A model generated the notes under the pieces. The model was not told the origin of the DNA, did no database searches, and saw only the letters and a program-made list of their open reading frames with translations. From positions 1 through 39,308 of IMG/VR virus record IMGVR_UViG_3300034138_000045: 39,308 nt of DNA, one strand, 5' to 3'. This document shows positions 8,999 through 39,308 of the stretch, one piece after another. Position numbers and translations under genes: made by a program. Source of the stretch: a virus. The stretch's first letter is position 1, and each line of letters starts with the position of its first letter.

Positions 8999-9289
8999 AT
9001 GCCGCGAATCGCGCCAGAGCCTGACCACGTTCTCTACGAGCTGGGCAAGCTCATCAAGCGCCAGCGCATCGCGCGCGGCACGCACCAGTACGACTTCGCG
9101 GCGCTTATCGGCGTGCATATCTCGACGCTCCGGCTCTACGAACACGGTCAGCGGAATCCTCCGATCGACACGCTGGTGCGCATGGCACACGGCTGCGATC
9201 TCGCACTGAGCCAGTTTCTTTCGCCGCTCGATCACATCGAGGTGCCCGTGAGGGAGCCGCGCAAGAACAAGCCGAAGGCTCCGAAGTGA
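8999..9289 (+). CDS. XRE-family helix-turn-helix regulator
   Basis: 96 residues. Residues 10-75 form a Cro/CI-type HTH: LGKLIKRQRIARGTHQYDFA, then AALIGVHISTLRLYEHGQRN as recognition helix and following turn, then the PPIDTLVRMAHGCDLALSQF closing helices. The C-terminus is short and basic, with no peptidase or dimerisation domain, so it is Cro-like in size. It is the first gene of the plus-strand accessory operon and overlaps the next regulator by 4 bases. It probably controls the divergent junction upstream. Confidence 0.85.
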   Translation: MPRIAPEPDHVLYELGKLIKRQRIARGTHQYDFAALIGVHISTLRLYEHGQRNPPIDTLVRMAHGCDLALSQFLSPLDHIEVPVREPRKNKPKAPK

Positions 9290-9768
9290 CGCTCGAGGAG
9301 GTGCGGAAGTTGCTGGAAGAGGCGATGGACTTCCACAGCGAGCACTGGCTCGAGGAGGCGGTCAGGCGTCTCGAGTCGCAGCGGCACTCGCAGCAGTTTC
9401 GCCGCATCTACGACATCACCACCGTGGGGGCGCGCATCAGGACCGCGCGCGAGACGGTCGGGCTCACGCAGCACCAGCTCGCCCGCCGCATGGGGTGGCA
9501 CCCGTGGGCGGTCAGCAACCTCGAGACGGGCCGCAGGAACCTCGACGCCCAGAAGCTCCCAGGGCTCGCCACGTGCCTCATGGTGAGCCGCGCGTGGCTG
9601 CTCATGGAGTCGGACGAGGGCGGGCCTCCCCTGCCCACCAAGGTGCTGCGGAAGCAAAAGCGGGTGAACTGGCAGCAGGCGACCGCGAAGCAGAAGAAGA
9701 AGGCGCGCGCCAAGGCCGAGCTCGAGCGGCTCAGGGGGCTGAGGCCGCCGAAGGAAACAAAGCCATGA
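9286..9768 (+). CDS. Second XRE-family helix-turn-helix regulator
   Basis: 160 residues from a GTG overlapping the previous stop. A helical N-terminal arm (residues 1-45) precedes an HTH at about 47-105: GARIRTARETVGLTQHQLAR followed by RMGWHPWAVSNLETGRRNL. The C-terminal 50 residues are Lys/Arg-rich and helical. No LexA-type autocleavage site is visible. Two XRE proteins in series could be a repressor/antirepressor pair that sets the lysis versus maintenance choice; the sequence does not say which is which. The gene ends inside the first octamer repeat upstream of parA. Confidence 0.8.
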   Translation: MTLEEVRKLLEEAMDFHSEHWLEEAVRRLESQRHSQQFRRIYDITTVGARIRTARETVGLTQHQLARRMGWHPWAVSNLETGRRNLDAQKLPGLATCLMVSRAWLLMESDEGGPPLPTKVLRKQKRVNWQQATAKQKKKARAKAELERLRGLRPPKETKP

Positions 9769-9789
9769 CGTCATGACGTCTTGACGCCG
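9766..9789 (+). repeat. Three tandem 8-bp repeats upstream of parA (candidate centromere/operator, site 1)
   Basis: Three contiguous octamers: TGACGTCA, TGACGTCT and TGACGCCG. The first is a perfect palindrome. They lie between the stop of the XRE gene and the parA start. In type Ib partition systems (ParA with a ribbon-helix-helix partner) the centromere is a set of short direct repeats upstream of parA that also acts as operator. A related copy with two octamers is at 10576-10591. The match of position and repeat style is good; binding is inferred. Confidence 0.7.
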
Positions 9790-9816
9790 CGAGCTTATTT
9801 CGCCACAACCGCCTAC

Positions 9817-10458
9817 ATGGCAACCATAACTTTTGGCGGGCAAAAAGGGGGCGCGGGCAAGACCGCGCTCACCATGCACCTGGGCGCGGAGTGGCTGCGC
9901 CGGGGAAGGAGCGTGCTGCTGGTCGACGCCGACCCGCAAGCGCACGTGCTCAAGTGGCACGGCATCGGAGTCGCGAAGGACCAGCCCGTGCCGGGCGTGG
10001 TGGGCGTCGGAGACGGGCTCAGGGCGGTCGTAGGGCCGCTCTCGCGCCAGCACGACGTGACCATCGTCGACACGGCCGGGCGGCACAGCCGCCGCCTCGG
10101 TGGGGCGCTGGCCATCACCGACCTGGTGCTCTTGCCGGCCAAGCCCGAGCCCGGCGACGTGTGGTCGCTCGAGGACTCGATCGAGCTCGTGCGCGAGGTG
10201 CAGCACGTGCGCCCCGACATGCGCGCGGCCATCGTCATGTGCTGCACGCGTGCGACCCGCATCGGCAAGGCGGCGCGCGACGCCATCGCCAAGGCCAAGA
10301 TACCGGTCCTCGGCACGAGCCTGCGGTACTTCGTGACCTACAGCGAGGCCCAGGCGGCGGGCAGGGGCGTGTCCCTGTACGCGCCCAAGTCGCAGGCGGC
10401 CGACGAGCTGCGCGCGCTGGCTGATGAGCTTGAGGGGTTGCTCCATGTCGCGGCGTAG
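9817..10458 (+). CDS. parA: ParA/Soj-family partition ATPase (type Ib size)
   Basis: 213 residues. The deviant Walker A KGGAGKT is at residues 10-16, the A' motif LLVDADPQA near 34-42, and Walker B VTIVDTAGR near 84-92. There is no N-terminal HTH, and the length fits type Ib ParA proteins, which work with a small ribbon-helix-helix centromere binder. Such a gene follows here with a 14-base overlap. ParA proteins bind DNA non-specifically with ATP and move plasmid copies apart. The ATG at residue 13 of the longer open frame was chosen because the deviant Walker A normally starts about ten residues from the N-terminus. A partition ATPase is a hallmark of extrachromosomal prophages. Confidence 0.9.
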   Translation: MATITFGGQKGGAGKTALTMHLGAEWLRRGRSVLLVDADPQAHVLKWHGIGVAKDQPVPGVVGVGDGLRAVVGPLSRQHDVTIVDTAGRHSRRLGGALAITDLVLLPAKPEPGDVWSLEDSIELVREVQHVRPDMRAAIVMCCTRATRIGKAARDAIAKAKIPVLGTSLRYFVTYSEAQAAGRGVSLYAPKSQAADELRALADELEGLLHVAA

Positions 10459-11628: not shown

Positions 11629-11665
11629 AGCCCGACGCGTTTTGCCTACCGTGGCGCGTCGGGCT
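11629..11665 (+). terminator. Strong 11-bp hairpin at the end of the accessory operon
   Basis: AGCCCGACGCG (11629-11639) pairs perfectly with CGCGTCGGGCT (11655-11665) around a 15-base loop and is followed by TTCGCTTTG. It lies about 80 bases after the zinc-ribbon gene and could end that operon. Its right arm and loop also contain the last codons and stop of the minus-strand gene, so it may serve both strands. The T-run is weak. Confidence 0.55.
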
Positions 11666-14586: not shown

Positions 14587-17046
14587 ATGCCGATGGACAC
14601 GAAAGCCGGGTTCATCGGCCTGGTGACGGCGACGGGCGAGGCTGCGTCCGCGCAGGGCGCGCTGCGCGTCGCGGACAACGTGACGCTTCGGAAAGAGGGC
14701 GCGCTCGAGTGTCGGCCGACGTTCACCAGCACAGCGCTGGCGCGAAGCTACCTCGGGGCGTTCCCCTTCAGGGGGTCGCTCTACTACCTCGGCACGAGCA
14801 ACGTCGTGTACTCGCCGACCGAGGCAACCGTTGCCTATCCGATTGCGACGCCCGCCGTGCGCGCCGACATCGTCAGCGCGAAGGAGGCGCGCGGCAACCT
14901 CTACGTCGCCAGCAAGCAGGGCGTCTACAAGGTCACGAGCACGAGCGACACGGCCCTGCGCCCGACGGGTCTGCTCCCGAACCAGGCGCCCATCTACGTC
15001 AAGCCCTCGATGGTCACGACCGGCACGCCGCTGTTGCTCGCAGCAAACCAGCAAGTGGCCTACCGTGTTGTCGCGAAGTACACGGACCCCAACGGCCTCA
15101 TCATCCGCAGCCGCCCCTCGGGCGCCGTGATCGCGAACAGCGCCGGAGTTGCCGCGACGCCGATGGTCACTCTCGTGCTGCGCAACCTCGGCGCCTACTT
15201 CCCGACGCCGGACGAGGTCGAGATTTATCGAACGCGCGTCTTCCCGACGACCAGCGCGGTTGACGATGAGATGCAGCTGGTCGCCACGGTCAAGGCGTCT
15301 CAGTTCACGCTGACGAGCGGCATCCTCTTTTACTACTTCACCGACCGTGTGCTCGACTCGGCGCGCGGCGTGACGCTGTACACGAGCCCGAGCCGTGGCG
15401 GCATCGAGAACGCTGCCGACCGCCCGCCTGGCGCCGCGTGCCTCGAGCGCTACCGGGGCTCTTTGTTCTTTGGCAACACCTACGGCCCCCACCGCATCAT
15501 TGTGAGTTGGAAGTGGTCAGCGACGGCCGACCGCACAGGCTCGGCGACCGGCCTCGGGATGCGCTCGGCGACGGGCAGCATCACGAACGGTGGCACGAGC
15601 ATCACGAGCGTCAGCAGTACGACCGGCCTACAAGTCGGCATGACCGTCCAGGGAACGGGCGTCGGGGGCAGGGTGACGGCCATCGTCGGCTCTACGGTCA
15701 CCATCGGCACGCCAGCGACGGCCACCGCTGCGGGCGTCGCGCTGACGTTCTACGACTCCATCTTCTACACCGAGCCCACGACGGGGACCGACTATGGCCT
15801 GAGCCCCTCGTACGTCGCGACCGACTCGCCGCCTTCCTATCAGGCGGGCAGCGGGCAGATCACCGCCTACGAGCTGACGCCGGCCGCGCCTGGCTACGAC
15901 GTGACGATGGTGCTCGAGACTGCGCACCGGGGCACGGGGCCGCTCCTGCTGCGCGCGACGCACCCCGAGGAATACAGCCCTGTGCTGGCGGCCGGCAACG
16001 CCGCGACGCCCACGTCGAGCACGCAGGACGTCATTCCGAATGGCCTCGCCTGGTCTGAGCCCGACGAGCCCGAGCACGTGCCGCCGAAGAACTTCGCGCG
16101 CGTCGGCGACACGGGCCGCGCCATCCTCGGCCTCGTGGCCACGCGCGACCGGCTGTTGATCTTCAAGGAAGACGGCCTCTTCATGCTGACCGGGGACACC
16201 GCGAAGAACTTCGCCATCTACCCGCTCGACACGACGTGCGTCTGCATCCTGCCGGGCTCCATTCGGCGCCTCAAGAACACGGTCTTCGCGCTGACGAACC
16301 TCGGGCTCGTTGCAGTCGACGAGAACGGCGGCGTCACCGTCGTCAGCCGCCCGATCCAGACCGAAGTCGCGCCCATCGTCAATCAGATCCGCACCGCCGC
16401 GAAGGCGAGCGGCCTGTACCTGATGCCCGGTCTCTCGGGGACCACGGGCGCCGCTGACGACGCCAACGGGGAATACTGGCTGCTGCTTGGCACCACGGCC
16501 CCGAGCTTTGGCGGTCAGGTGCTCATCTACTCGATGCCGCGCGAGGGCTTCACCACCTACAGCTTCGGCTTCTCGACGCCCGTGGCGCTGACGACCGATG
16601 GCGAGGGCCAGCCGCTTGCGCTCACCTCAGACAGCCTGCTGACGCCCAGCACCACGAGGGGGTTCGTGATGGCGCGGATCAGCCCCCACGCGTTCAGCGA
16701 TCCGGCGCTTGTGGGCAAACTGTGGTCACACATTGTGGTTGGACTGTCCCAACTGACCGGAATCTCGGGAACGGGGGCGATTACGGCGACGTTCTCGAGC
16801 TCCGAAGCCATGGTGACAAGTACGATCGCCGAGACCATCGAGGCGCCCGTTCCCTCCACGGTGCAGCTGCCGCTCGGGACGCTGCTCAGGCATCCCATCC
16901 CCCGCGCGATGGCCCGATCGTTCATGCTGTTTGTGGAGCTCGGCCTCAACGTCACCAGCGGCTCGTTCGTGCTCGAGTTGATGGGCGCCGAGTCCCGCGA
17001 GAACGTCACCAACAAGCGGCCGACGCACGGAACGGGGGCGACCTGA
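14587..17046 (+). CDS. Tail nozzle / stabilisation protein (P22 gp10-like, beta-propeller type)
   Basis: 819 residues, the longest gene. The C-terminal half has repeated four-strand blades, for example ILGLVATRDRLLIFKEDGLF near residue 520 and NTVFALTNLGLVAVDENGG, as in podophage nozzle proteins. The N-terminal part contains the typical opening in which variables are assigned to a target (FIGLVTATGEAASAQGAL). A Gly/Thr-rich Ig-like or knob insertion with GTSITSVSSTTGLQVGMTV lies near residue 335-355. It likely forms the hexameric tube at the end of the short tail. Confidence 0.75.
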   Translation: MPMDTKAGFIGLVTATGEAASAQGALRVADNVTLRKEGALECRPTFTSTALARSYLGAFPFRGSLYYLGTSNVVYSPTEATVAYPIATPAVRADIVSAKEARGNLYVASKQGVYKVTSTSDTALRPTGLLPNQAPIYVKPSMVTTGTPLLLAANQQVAYRVVAKYTDPNGLIIRSRPSGAVIANSAGVAATPMVTLVLRNLGAYFPTPDEVEIYRTRVFPTTSAVDDEMQLVATVKASQFTLTSGILFYYFTDRVLDSARGVTLYTSPSRGGIENAADRPPGAACLERYRGSLFFGNTYGPHRIIVSWKWSATADRTGSATGLGMRSATGSITNGGTSITSVSSTTGLQVGMTVQGTGVGGRVTAIVGSTVTIGTPATATAAGVALTFYDSIFYTEPTTGTDYGLSPSYVATDSPPSYQAGSGQITAYELTPAAPGYDVTMVLETAHRGTGPLLLRATHPEEYSPVLAAGNAATPTSSTQDVIPNGLAWSEPDEPEHVPPKNFARVGDTGRAILGLVATRDRLLIFKEDGLFMLTGDTAKNFAIYPLDTTCVCILPGSIRRLKNTVFALTNLGLVAVDENGGVTVVSRPIQTEVAPIVNQIRTAAKASGLYLMPGLSGTTGAADDANGEYWLLLGTTAPSFGGQVLIYSMPREGFTTYSFGFSTPVALTTDGEGQPLALTSDSLLTPSTTRGFVMARISPHAFSDPALVGKLWSHIVVGLSQLTGISGTGAITATFSSSEAMVTSTIAETIEAPVPSTVQLPLGTLLRHPIPRAMARSFMLFVELGLNVTSGSFVLELMGAESRENVTNKRPTHGTGAT

Positions 17047-30308: not shown

Positions 30309-30683
30309 GAGAGCCTCCTAACTATGTTTCCGTGCCATGTAGGAAGAGACTTGCACGTACACAGTGAGAGGAGGCTAAATCTGGGTCTCGCGCGTGCGAT
30401 CCTGCTAGCTAGCCGAGAAGGCCTCCCGGAGGAGAGCGTGCTCCCGCTGGTCGCACCGGAGAGCTTGGGAAGGGAAGAGTTCGGCTAGCCGGAATCTTCC
30501 TACTCGCACACCTTGGGGAGTCGGGCAGCAGGCCCAGACCCACGACCCTGGGGGGACGATGAGAGCGAGGCCCGCCGCCGTGACTCACGGGCTAGCCTAC
30601 CAGCTCGCCCGCTCCGCAGGCAAGCTTGCCTCAAGATCCACAGCCCGAGCACATGGGTCCCCTTCGCCCCCACCGCCTGATGA

Positions 30684-30712
30684 TTGCAAGGGTGTACCCC
30701 CTGGCAGATAAA
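30684..30712 (+). promoter_or_regulatory. Candidate rightward promoter
   Basis: TTGCAA and GATAAA are separated by 17 bases, four of six matches each to the sigma-70 consensus. The candidate lies just upstream of the AT-rich palindrome, so a regulator bound there could control it. It is the best match seen in the region but remains a prediction. Confidence 0.4.
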
Positions 30713-30761
30713 CTATTGCATATATACGGGGTGTATGCTGGTGGTGATTCGTATATAGGCA

Positions 30762-30787
30762 ATAGATTCGACCGCGGTCGATTCTAT
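30762..30787. repeat. AT-flanked 26-bp near-perfect palindrome
   Basis: A perfect 14-bp core, TCGACCGCGGTCGA at 30768-30781, is extended by five more matched pairs after one mismatch on each side. Outside it, GTATATAG (30751-30758) and CTATATATAC (30784-30793) add imperfect pairing, for a total symmetric element of about 43 bases. Size and symmetry suit a dimeric repressor operator or a replication/transcription structure. Confidence 0.65.
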
Positions 30788-31010
30788 ATATACAACACGT
30801 CAGGTCTGCAGACACTCAGACGGCGGCGTCTAGAGAAATAGCGGTGTGTCTAGTGAATGGGTGGCGCACGGCTCAGGGGTGCGGCTCTCCCAGCTCACGG
30901 TGACACGCGCCCTGTCAACCTCGCCTAGCCGAATTCTACCTCCAGCCATAGAGGTGCCAACCGCTGGTTGCGCCCCCCTAACTAGGCTAGGTTCGGTGAG
31001 CTGCGAGGGT

Positions 31011-31026
31011 GTGTCAGTCTTGACAC
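31011..31026. repeat. GTGTCA/TGACAC inverted repeat
   Basis: GTGTCA and TGACAC face each other across four bases. The right half contains TTGACA (31020-31025), a perfect -35 box, though no convincing -10 follows. A related TGACA-N7-TGTCA pair lies at 30901-30917. They may be operator half-sites of the same regulator. Confidence 0.45.
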
Positions 31027-31166
31027 GGCGCTAGCCGCTCGCTGCCTGCGAGCTCGGCCTGAGCCCTGCTGACATTCGCACTACACAGTGTGCTGAACGA
31101 CAGACGCCAAACAGGGCTTTTGCTATTCTTATCTTGTGGTTGGCGAGATGAGCCAGCCACCCCGGA

Positions 31167-31194
31167 CCTAGCCCGCAGCTAGGCAATGACACCG
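31167..31194 (+). promoter_or_regulatory. Repeated leader element, copy A
   Basis: Stem CCTAGC/GCTAGG with a 5-base loop is followed directly by CAATGACACCG. The start codon of the next gene lies 14 bases further, after a GGAG site. The same design, with a different stem sequence, precedes two further genes. Confidence 0.65.
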
Positions 31195-31208
31195 CTGGAG
31201 CTGACACC

Positions 31209-36480: not shown

Positions 36481-36666
36481 GTGCCGACCTCCGAGCACTA
36501 CTACTGCGACCGCTGCAGCGCCGACGTCAGCCGGCGTGACGGCGTGCGCCTGATGAGCTCGCACTTTGTCGTGAAGCGCTCGCTGCCCATCGCGGACCTG
36601 TGCCCCGGCTGCTACCGCGATCTGCGGCAGTGGCTTGGCGAAATGCGCCACGTCGTCGAGTCGTGA
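36481..36666 (+). CDS. Small zinc-knuckle protein
   Basis: 61 residues from a GTG two bases after the SSB-like gene stop. A CDRC pair near residues 9-12 and a CPGC pair near 41-44 would make one zinc ribbon. No family is recognised. It may regulate or accompany replication. Confidence 0.6.
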   Translation: MPTSEHYYCDRCSADVSRRDGVRLMSSHFVVKRSLPIADLCPGCYRDLRQWLGEMRHVVES

Positions 36667-36691
36667 GATACTGCCCCGCGAGGGGTGCCAC

Positions 36692-37138
36692 ATGGCGATC
36701 AGCAAGCTGTACTCAAACATCGGCCGACTGGGCACCGAGCTGGCCCAGCAGCACTACGCGACGACAACCGACTTGGACGGCGTCTTGCCCTGGTCGCCAA
36801 CCGACGCCGACCGCCAGAAGCTCGTGGCGCTGCTCGGACGCTCGGCCACGCGCGAGGAGGAGGCGGTGTTCGAAAGCGGTTACCGCGAAAGTATGCTCAG
36901 GCTGGACGGAAACGCTCACACGGTACGGCTCAACCCCGTGTTCGTCACCGAGCTGTTCGCGGCGCTCGGCCGGCACGGCGTGCTGGTGCCGCCCGATGGC
37001 ACGCCCGAGCGGCTCGAGGTCGAGATGGAGCTCTCGCGCCTGGTCGACAACCTCAAGCGCTACATCGCCGAGCGCACGCCAGAGCCGCCTCCTGGGCGCG
37101 ATGAGGGCGAGCAGGCGCAGCAGGCGGCGCAGGTCTAG
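36692..37138 (+). CDS. Protein of unknown function before the replication region
   Basis: 148 residues. Helical N-terminus (KLYSNIGRLGTELAQQHYA), a mixed centre (YRESMLRLDGNAHTVRL), and a charged Gln/Glu-rich C-terminus. It lies directly before the structured non-coding stretch. No family is recognised. Confidence 0.6.
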   Translation: MAISKLYSNIGRLGTELAQQHYATTTDLDGVLPWSPTDADRQKLVALLGRSATREEEAVFESGYRESMLRLDGNAHTVRLNPVFVTELFAALGRHGVLVPPDGTPERLEVEMELSRLVDNLKRYIAERTPEPPPGRDEGEQAQQAAQV

Positions 37139-37648
37139 TTCGGGGCTCCTGGGCGCTCCTCGTGGCGCTCTGGGGGCCTTGCTCGCTTCGGCTGGCCCTC
37201 GCCATGCTCTGTCCCACCCGGACGCAAAGCAGGAGCGCGAAGAGGGCCAGCCGGGGTGGGCGCTTTTGTCACAGCGCCTACTAGCTTGACCGGTGTGAAC
37301 GAGCGGGGAGACGCTTCGAGTTCGCGCGCTCGACACGAGCAGTCCCGGAGCGCGGGTTACGGGTCAGTAGGCAGCCCTTTGAGGGGCGGACGATCTCGCT
37401 GGTTCCGGGGGGAATTACAGCGTGGGGCGTCTTATTGCGCTCGGAGTGTCGAGATGGCGGGAAAAGTGTGTGGGGGCCCAGCAAATGCTGGCCTGGGGGA
37501 ATCCAGCGGAGTTAAAGAAAAAGACCCGGAGCGCTCTACCACTCCGGGCCTGCCTCGAGACGGTGTTTGGAAGCCCGTCGCCGAGGGGTGCATTGCTGCG
37601 CCTTACGCAGGTGAACCTACCCTGGCTTCCAGACAGGCGCAAGCCTCA
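37139..37648. ncRNA. Structured non-coding stretch before the initiator gene
   Basis: 510 bases with no convincing gene; frames here have mixed third-position use unlike true genes around them. It is dense in stems: an 11-bp stem (37190-37200 with 37242-37252), whose loop contains CCCACCC at 37213-37219 that can pair with GGGTGGG at 37254-37260 (a pseudoknot), a 6-bp stem at 37259-37278, a CCAGCA/TGCTGG hairpin at 37478-37491, a 7-bp stem at 37525-37548, and an 8-bp stem (37568-37575 with 37624-37631) enclosing a smaller one (37596-37610). A replication-control RNA or riboregulator is possible. The type label is tentative. Confidence 0.4.
37511..37548 (-). terminator. Intrinsic terminator on the minus strand
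   Basis: On the minus strand, CCCGGAG, a 10-base loop and CTCCGGG are followed by TCTTTTTCTTT, a good Rho-independent layout. No gene on the minus strand ends here, so it would stop an antisense transcript begun to the right, near or inside the initiator gene start. On the minus strand TTGACA (37659-37654) could serve as a -35 for it, but no clear -10 is seen. Confidence 0.5.
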
Positions 37649-38659
37649 ATGCATGTCAAAAGCTCGACACCCGACCGTCAAAGTTTTGACGCTGCGGCCG
37701 CGAACTCCAAGCCCCGTCGTAGCCGCCCCGACCCCTGGTATCCGCAACCCGTCAACCGCGCCGCGGTCTGGGCGCGCATGGACTACCTCGACGCGCTGAT
37801 TGCGTCGGACCTGCTCTCGCTGATGCGCGGCGAGGAGCGCTGGTCGGGCTCGCTCGACGACCTGCTCGCGTGCGCCGCCAAGCGCCTCGGCATCGGCAGC
37901 CGGAACCGGAAGCGCTTCTGGCTCGCCGTGGAGCGCATGCGCGCCCGTGGCCTCCTGTTCGAGGCCGAGGACCACGTGCACCTGCTCTACAGCGAGACTG
38001 CATTCCGCGAGTACAAGGGGCTCGCTCCTGATACTCACCAGATGGTGGCGAAAATCGCGCCGCGTGCGGTGCCCACTGCGCAGTCAGTGAGCAGTCAGCG
38101 AGCAGTCAGTGAGCACTCAGCGAGCACTCAGACAGAGCTAAGTAGCGGGATTTATTCAATACCCATTGCTAGAGAGAGAGAGAGAGAAGAGAAGAGAGAG
38201 AAACCCCCTACGGGGGTAAAGAGCCCCCCGGTGCGCGTGCCGCGAAAGCCGGACGCTCGGAAGCCGCTCTGGGGGAGGCTGCTCGCGGACGCCGCCAAGC
38301 GGCACGGGTTCATCGCCGAGAAGCTACTTACCTCGAAGCAAACGGCCGACGTGATCGCCAAGGCGAGCGCCCACGCAGACGCCGCTGGCGTGCCGCTCGA
38401 AGCCGCCATGGTCCGCCTGCTCGACGAGGGGCACAGGCGCTACCAGGACGAGGGCAAGGAGCTCAAGTGGTGCCTCGTGGACTGGCAGCCCGGAGCGCCC
38501 CCGCGACGCCGCTGGGGTAAGCCGAAGCTCGAGATTGCGCCCTGCTCGCCGGCCGAGGAGTTCGGCACCGAGGAGGAGGCACTCGAGAAGCTTCGCCGCC
38601 GCGAGCTCGAGGTCGCCGCTGACCTCGCACGCCGGGGGGTGCGCCGTGTCGGCACGTGA
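37649..38659 (+). CDS. Phage replication initiator, lambda-O-like, with embedded iterons
   Basis: 336 residues from this ATG. The N-terminal domain (about 30-125) is a winged-helix type (NRAAVWARMDYLDALIASDL, then RNRKRFWLAVERMRARGLLF). A low-complexity linker (about 140-190) is encoded by tandem DNA repeats and a GA tract. The C-terminal domain (about 200-280) is helical and ends in a charged tail. DNA-binding domain, linker carrying the origin repeats, then a partner domain, followed by a helicase loader gene: this is the lambda O-P plan. The start is uncertain: an upstream ATG at 37454 has a good ribosome site but its extra codons look non-coding. Confidence 0.7.
   Translation: MHVKSSTPDRQSFDAAAANSKPRRSRPDPWYPQPVNRAAVWARMDYLDALIASDLLSLMRGEERWSGSLDDLLACAAKRLGIGSRNRKRFWLAVERMRARGLLFEAEDHVHLLYSETAFREYKGLAPDTHQMVAKIAPRAVPTAQSVSSQRAVSEHSASTQTELSSGIYSIPIAREREREEKREKPPTGVKSPPVRVPRKPDARKPLWGRLLADAAKRHGFIAEKLLTSKQTADVIAKASAHADAAGVPLEAAMVRLLDEGHRRYQDEGKELKWCLVDWQPGAPPRRRWGKPKLEIAPCSPAEEFGTEEEALEKLRRRELEVAADLARRGVRRVGT
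37654..37691. promoter_or_regulatory. CGTCAAA operator-like cluster at the initiator start
   Basis: TGTCAAA (37654-37660) and CGTCAAA (37676-37682) are direct repeats 22 bases apart, about two helical turns. The second pairs with TTTGACG (37685-37691) to form a perfect 7+7 palindrome with a 2-base centre. They lie over the first codons of the initiator. Such phased sites suggest autoregulation by the initiator or binding by another regulator. Confidence 0.5.
38080..38134 (+). repeat. Five 11-bp direct repeats (candidate origin iterons)
   Basis: Contiguous units: GCAGTCAGTGA, GCAGTCAGCGA, GCAGTCAGTGA, GCACTCAGCGA and a last, partial GCACTCAGACA. The period of 11 is not a multiple of three, so the repeat is kept at DNA level and not as a peptide repeat. 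The sites fall on roughly the same helix face. Origins of lambdoid phages have the same design inside the O gene. Confidence 0.8.
38171..38203 (+). other. 33-nt all-purine tract (candidate unwinding element)
   Basis: Every base is A or G on this strand, mostly GA repeats. It lies 37 bases after the iterons, with an AT-richer patch (TTTATTCAATA) between. Strand-asymmetric purine or AT tracts next to iterons are where lambda-type origins melt. A hairpin, ACCCCC/GGGGGT with loop TAC (38203-38217), follows directly. Confidence 0.6.
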
Positions 38660-39308
38660 CAAGCCCGACGCGAAGCCGAACCCGTTCCAGCTCATCGCGC
38701 AGAAAGCCATCGCAGACCTCACGCCCGAACAGGGCGCCGACGCCGCGATGCGTGACGCGCGCCGCGCTGCCCAAGAGCACCAGGAGCGCCAGAGCGCCTG
38801 GCTCGATGCGGCGCTTGCGACGGCGCGGCTGCGCGGGGTGCGGTTCATCATGGAAAACCCCGACGCGGACAGCGTCGCGCTGCGGTACATCCGCGGCTGG
38901 TTCACCGCGCCGAAGGGGCCGCATATCCTGCTGCGCGGCCCAACCGGCACCGGCAAGACCGTGGCCGCTGCGTGGCTGGTCCGGCACTGCACCGAGCCGA
39001 ACGAAGCGCGCGGCAGCGTCGCGTGGCTCTACCCCGACGACGTGTGCAGCGCCGTGCTGCACGAGCGCTGGGACGAGAAAGCCCCGAAGCTCGCGCGCTA
39101 CGTCGTGGTCGACGAGGTCGGCACCGAGACGCGACCCGAGTTCACCAAGGCGCTCGCGCGGCTGCTCGACCGCGACTCGTGCAGCGTGGTGATGACCTCG
39201 AACCTGAGCAAACAAGCCTTCGAGGAGCGCTACGGGAGCGACGACCGGCTTACGAATCGCTCGGGTGCGTCGGTGGAGGTGTACGACATCCCCGGCAAGA
39301 GCAAGCGC
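38646..39308 (+). CDS. DnaC/IstB-like AAA+ helicase loader (5' part; continues at the window start)
   Basis: AAA+ ATPase that probably loads the host replicative helicase at the phage origin. Joined to the window start, the protein is 227 residues. Walker A GPTGTGKT is at residues 98-105, Walker B VVVDEVG near 153-159, a sensor-I stretch VVMTSN at 181-186, and an arginine-rich ERYGSDDRL segment at 194-202. The N-terminal 60 residues are helical and carry no zinc-binding cysteines, unlike some DnaC proteins. The GTG start overlaps the end of the initiator gene by 14 bases, so the two are probably translationally coupled, matching the lambda O-P order of initiator followed by loader. Family assignment from motifs is solid; the exact helicase partner is inference. 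Confidence 0.85.
   Translation, partial: MSARDKPDAKPNPFQLIAQKAIADLTPEQGADAAMRDARRAAQEHQERQSAWLDAALATARLRGVRFIMENPDADSVALRYIRGWFTAPKGPHILLRGPTGTGKTVAAAWLVRHCTEPNEARGSVAWLYPDDVCSAVLHERWDEKAPKLARYVVVDEVGTETRPEFTKALARLLDRDSCSVVMTSNLSKQAFEERYGSDDRLTNRSGASVEVYDIPGKSKR
39182..39308. repeat. Terminal direct repeat, right copy (contig closure overlap)
   Basis: Exact copy of the first 127 bases of the window. It lies inside the 3' part of the helicase-loader gene, a coding position that would be unusual for a natural terminal repeat and is expected for an assembly overlap. Removing one copy gives a unit of 39,181 bases. Confidence 0.9.

Follow-up and report, generated by a model that had tools for sequence, protein, structure and literature searches.

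The gap at positions 37139-37648, just before a probable replication initiator gene, is tentatively read here as controlling a replication module of the lambda (O/P-like) type, with an OOP-like minus-strand unit facing the initiator leader and, ahead of that unit, a hairpin for termination or processing. This is the reading toward which we lean, short of calling it probable. As far as the analogy carries, the arrangement of the gap resembles the lambda antisense OOP unit more than a pseudoknot switch. In the proposed mechanism, a strong plus-strand hairpin (37181-37261) would end or process the RNA read from the recombination genes upstream, and a short minus-strand unit opposite the initiator leader would stop at about 37521, with the position and orientation of a lambdoid OOP. 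That unit would most likely lower initiator expression or set origin firing, through antisense pairing, opposing transcription, or both.

Coding content of the gap and the probable replication genes

The window, meaning the whole stretch of DNA analyzed, is 39,308 bases long, comes from a virus record, and has a GC content of 0.67. Its two ends carry a 127-bp exact direct repeat (1-127 = 39182-39308), which leaves about 39,181 bp unique and marks the genome as circular or terminally redundant. The genes and sites to which the analysis refers are as follows.

9286-9768: HTH repressor-like gene
9781-10458: ParA-like gene
36692-37138, plus strand: upstream gene, 148 aa, function unassigned
37139-37700: non-coding region between the upstream gene and the recognizably coding part of the initiator gene (codon score, six frames)
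37649-38659, plus strand: probable replication initiator, beginning at either 37649 or 37454
37655-37690: pair of palindrome-like sites of 14 bp, GTCAAAAGCTCGAC and GTCAAAGTTTTGAC, spaced 22 bp apart where the initiator gene begins
38080-38134, plus strand: tandem iterons of 11 bp within the initiator gene (TRF score 76-90; 4.7 copies at 38080-38131)
38135-38210, plus strand: AT-rich and GA-repeat tract beside the iterons (GC minimum 0.49; TRF AG array at 38171-38201)
38646-39308, plus strand: DnaC-like helicase loader, overlapping the end of the initiator and running on across the circular junction

The first-pass annotation had described the gap as free of genes, and codon statistics confirmed this. 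With codon usage modeled on 19 confidently called genes of the same genome, all six frames were non-coding from about 37139 to 37700. Coding alternatives in the gap, including an ORF at 37422-37799, were ruled out by the same statistics. The accompanying statement that the genes of this genome are tightly packed mostly held, except that a second stretch of about 750 nt at 30480-31200 had no coding signal in any frame; it contains a near-perfect 26-nt palindrome at 30762-30787. Both genes flanking the gap run on the plus strand, and the upstream one (36692-37138) had no family match.

The gene at 37649 is probably a lambda-O-type replication initiator, a reading drawn from its winged-helix-like N-terminus, the 11-bp iterons and AT/GA tract within the gene, and the DnaC-like loader that follows. 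The model of the N-terminal domain had four helices and a two-strand wing (H-H-H-H-E-E) at a pLDDT of 70. Its Foldseek matches were weak, the best at an E value of 0.16, and many of them were winged-helix domains (RuvB, MarR-type, linker histone, ORC). The full-length model was too poor to use (pLDDT 50). The initiator sequence had no PHROG or PDB match, no significant Pfam match, and no tblastn match, and O-like profiles were among those left unmatched. The loader gene matched two profiles, both DnaC-like helicase loaders (PHROG 3277, E 1.7e-12; PHROG 50, E 3e-11), and by tblastn it also matched loaders of Streptococcus phages. Going by base composition and repeats, the iterons and the AT-rich/GA tract (38080-38205) are the probable replication origin. 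The palindrome-like sites at 37655-37690 are a possible operator pair; a genome-wide operator matching GTCAAA-TTTGAC palindromes was not found, and the sites were not enriched elsewhere in the window.

Folding of the gap and the plus-strand hairpins

Dense RNA structure had been claimed for the whole gap. The signal was instead confined to two strand-specific parts, with the middle close to shuffled sequence. Folded as a whole, the 510 nt gave z scores against shuffles of -2.76 on the plus strand and -1.78 on the minus strand. When the plus strand of the genome was scanned in 140-nt windows, 37131-37270 had the lowest z of all (-5.05), the next lowest elsewhere being -3.5. Between the two structured parts, 37271-37515 was near zero in 140-nt windows and reached -2.15 when folded as a single 245-nt piece. 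The strand bias was opposite in the two structured segments: 37181-37262 had a z of -5.35 on the plus strand (0/300 shuffles) versus -2.35 on the minus strand, and 37516-37660 had a z of -4.0 on the minus strand (0/300 shuffles) versus -2.2 on the plus strand. These opposite biases are part of the case for the OOP-like reading. A search with Rfam covariance models returned no match at the gathering threshold and otherwise chance-level matches, and a tRNA/tmRNA search returned none. The plus-strand elements were the following.

37142-37180, plus strand: first hairpin, right after the upstream stop codon (MFE fold; z -2.2 for 37142-37178)
37181-37261, plus strand: extended 20-bp hairpin, then GCUUUUGUC (MFE -56.1 kcal/mol, ViennaRNA)
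37189-37200 with 37242-37253, plus strand: perfect 12-bp stem
37213-37219 (CCCACCC) with 37254-37260 (GGGTGGG), plus strand: possible pseudoknot helix, competing with the basal hairpin arm

The hairpin at 37181-37261 is a candidate terminator or RNase III site. Within it, the stem that had been credited with 11 perfect pairs is present and perfect, with a length of 12 bp rather than 11. The CCCACCC/GGGTGGG complement is there as claimed and abuts the stem, with no base between the helices. A stem of at least 11 bp with a 7-nt outward complement occurred in 0/400 shuffles of the region, and shuffles of the whole window averaged 0.33. GGGTGGG can alternatively pair with 37181-37188, which lengthens the hairpin to 20 bp. 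For the pseudoknot form, the stem with its compatible inner pairs would contribute about -36.8 kcal/mol and the second helix -17.5, before any penalty. Inclusion of the textbook pseudoknot penalty of +7 to +10 kcal/mol and of some coaxial stacking gave a total of about -47 to -50 kcal/mol. The comparison went against the pseudoknot, with the nested 20-bp hairpin favored by an estimated 6-9 kcal/mol. On these nearest-neighbor estimates, the pseudoknot is a possible pairing, yet would not be the expected ground state.

Two further features lie elsewhere in the window. A strong plus-strand terminator-like hairpin with 11 perfect pairs lies at 11629-11665, in the gap before a capsid-type gene, and a 17-nt exact complement of the hairpin 5' arm and loop (37189-37205) lies in a structural gene at 16598-16614, probably by chance.

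Minus-strand terminator and comparison with lambda OOP

The second structured segment contains a feature that the first-pass annotation missed and that is stronger than the pseudoknot, namely a unique minus-strand terminator that points to an antisense unit nearer the start codon.

37513-37551, minus strand: intrinsic terminator, with a 12-pair stem (37551-37522), a loop of 6, then a T-rich tail, TTTTCTTTA
37517-37660, minus strand: putative antisense RNA, ending at the terminator (minus-strand fold z as given above for 37516-37660)

Directly after the minus-strand stem the letters read TTTTCTTTAA. With stringent settings, no other intrinsic terminator turned up on either strand of the 39-kb window, against 0.2 expected per shuffled genome. 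Since both flanking genes are on the plus strand, it would stop a minus-strand transcript opposite the initiator leader; its uniqueness and its place in a gap flanked by plus-strand genes argue for the OOP-like reading. Most of the minus-strand folding signal came from the terminator hairpin itself, as 37552-37648 alone had a z of -1.5, and minus-strand structure without that hairpin exceeded that of shuffled sequence only slightly (z -1.5 to -2.5). No sigma-70-type promoter was recognized on either strand from 36500 to 38200. We infer that a minus-strand RNA is produced, and likewise its start and its function.

As a control, the same terminator detector was run on lambda and on O-bearing phages, 14 of which were sampled down the similarity ranking. 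In lambda it placed a minus-strand terminator 84 nt ahead of O, which matches tO, the end of OOP (PMC3985674). Minus-strand terminators lay upstream of O in 7 of the 14 O-type modules, within 300 nt in 5 of them. Six of these seven were at the 3' end of cII, several being close copies of one another; the seventh belonged to Pseudomonas phage MPK9, where the terminator is in a gap, 27-47 nt before O (1448-1468 of L017). The lambda result (-84 nt) and the 7/14 modules count toward the OOP-like reading. The MPK9 terminator looks like an OOP-like unit, apparently without cII. MPK9 is like the window in having a minus-strand terminator in a non-coding gap directly before O, and is unlike it in that the initiators are unrelated in sequence and the gap is about 70 nt in MPK9 versus about 500 nt here.

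Lambda has iterons in the initiator gene, an adjacent AT/purine-rich tract, and an adjoining helicase loader (O-ori-P plan; PMC3985674 and lambda annotation). The window shares the iterons and AT/purine-rich tract within the initiator gene, and its loader gene overlaps the initiator end. With the winged-helix N-terminus, for which matches were weak, this makes up the anatomy of the O family, and it is a further argument for the OOP-like reading; unlike in lambda, the initiator has no detectable sequence similarity to O. An opposite-strand intrinsic terminator shortly upstream of the initiator, as in OOP, is present here as well (37551-37522, minus strand), at about -128 from ATG 37649 compared to -84 in lambda. 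The terminator differs from that of lambda in lying in a non-coding gap rather than at a cII 3' end; there is no cII-like gene, and about 380 nt lie between the end of the upstream gene (37138) and the terminator. Also unlike in lambda, no promoter was recognized and there is an extra plus-strand hairpin region upstream. By analogy, then, the control among O-type phages supports a unit that works like OOP, and strict membership in the OOP class fails on the cII overlap.

Several observations were counted against the OOP-like reading. In lambda, oop RNA acts on cII, and it is pO activity rather than the RNA that affects replication, the oop RNA itself having little effect (PMC3985674). To this are added the lack of a cII-like gene at the terminator, of a recognized promoter, and of any relatives found, and the weak minus-strand structure beyond the terminator. 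The terminator could also do no more than stop transcription that begins at spurious promoters on the minus strand. If there is a real minus-strand unit, antisense transcription of the OOP kind at O-type origins would not be tied to cII silencing or to enteric lambdoids, and an opposing transcript would be a recurring device at phage replication genes.

Competing readings of the gap and relatives

The gap could instead be an ordinary spacer holding a terminator for the upstream operon, a promoter for the replication operon, and a stop for stray transcripts on the minus strand, with no regulatory RNA. Strong plus-strand hairpins beginning 3 nt past the stop codon of the upstream gene, with UUUU after them, fit such a spacer, as do the similar hairpin before the major capsid-type gene (11629-11665) and the existence of another, longer gap (30480-31200). 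About 500 nt exceeds what a simple terminator plus promoter needs, however, and the one strong terminator of the genome is oriented against the flanking genes; we consider a plain spacer somewhat unlikely. Another scenario would have the initiator start at ATG 37454, in which case part of the gap would be coding, the hairpins near 37522-37551 would fall inside coding sequence, and the true gap would shrink to about 315 nt. The frame is open from 37256, and ATG 37454 has GGAG 7 nt upstream, with an SD duplex of -6.4 kcal/mol versus -2.5 at ATG 37649, which has no Shine-Dalgarno sequence; most other genes of the genome have one. SD-like energies of -6.4 were nevertheless found at about 10% of random sites. 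The GC3 of 37454-37648 was 0.54, level with the lowest of 190 true-frame gene windows, and 65-codon segments of the initiator frame within the gap, including 37454-37648, had codon scores below all 190, although the iteron stretch inside the initiator gene scored equally low, which shows that real coding sequence under another constraint can lose its codon signature. On balance, the upstream start is unlikely.

The first-pass annotation had proposed that a leader-RNA pseudoknot switches translation of the initiator, as in IncI/IncB/IncL/M plasmids. What stood of that proposal was a non-coding, RNA-structured region before a probable initiator in a phage with a ParA-like gene; pseudoknot control of translation did not stand. 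The pairing is perfect, coaxial, and rare among shuffles of the region, and the phage has ParA along with a probable initiator and its loader. The gap is also like the IncI-alpha/IncB/IncL/M leaders in having an H-type pseudoknot-capable stem before the initiator gene and a possible antisense RNA. In IncI-type plasmids, the pseudoknot sits at the ribosome-binding site of the initiator (references in PMC10724649). Here, GGGTGGG ends at 37260, which leaves about 390 nt to ATG 37649 or about 190 nt to ATG 37454, and the pseudoknot is outcompeted by the nested hairpin. No coding-like leader peptide was found in the gap by codon score in any frame, a measure that a very short peptide would escape. 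Neither the pseudoknot at the ribosome-binding site nor the translated overlapping leader peptide of IncI/IncB was seen. The antisense-type terminator, moreover, does not face the pseudoknot loop and its unit does not overlap the pseudoknot stem-loop, and 0.33 such pairings are expected across the whole window. We therefore give the pseudoknot switch little credence. Two-RNA control, in which a plus-strand element switching between the 20-bp hairpin and the pseudoknot and a minus-strand RNA antisense to the initiator leader together set phage-plasmid copy number, would be similarly improbable. An RNA-based (primer or countertranscript) origin like that of ColE1 or of non-RepA mycobacterial prophage plasmids appears more doubtful still. 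Such origins do occur in phages, as a non-coding RNA beside parABS in mycobacteriophages (PMC7157519), and the window likewise combines a ParA-like gene with about 500 nt of non-coding, RNA-structured sequence. The mycobacterial RNA adjoins parABS, though, and ParA here (9781-10458) is far from the gap; an initiator gene is present, and with its internal iterons and the helicase loader it already gives a protein-dependent origin.

Relatives of the phage were sought as well. The viral contig collection, queried with the initiator, TerL, portal, loader, exonuclease, capsid-type gene, upstream gene, and stem pattern, yielded only partial TerL matches at 35-36%, and the genome contig collection yielded none. 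Comparison of the region and the initiator with phage and plasmid records (blastn/tblastn) found no relatives. A Silvanigrella-associated phage (CP017838), from which the replication module of the window phage is absent, had a distantly related terminase, portal, capsid-type protein, and another structural protein, at about 24-35% identity.
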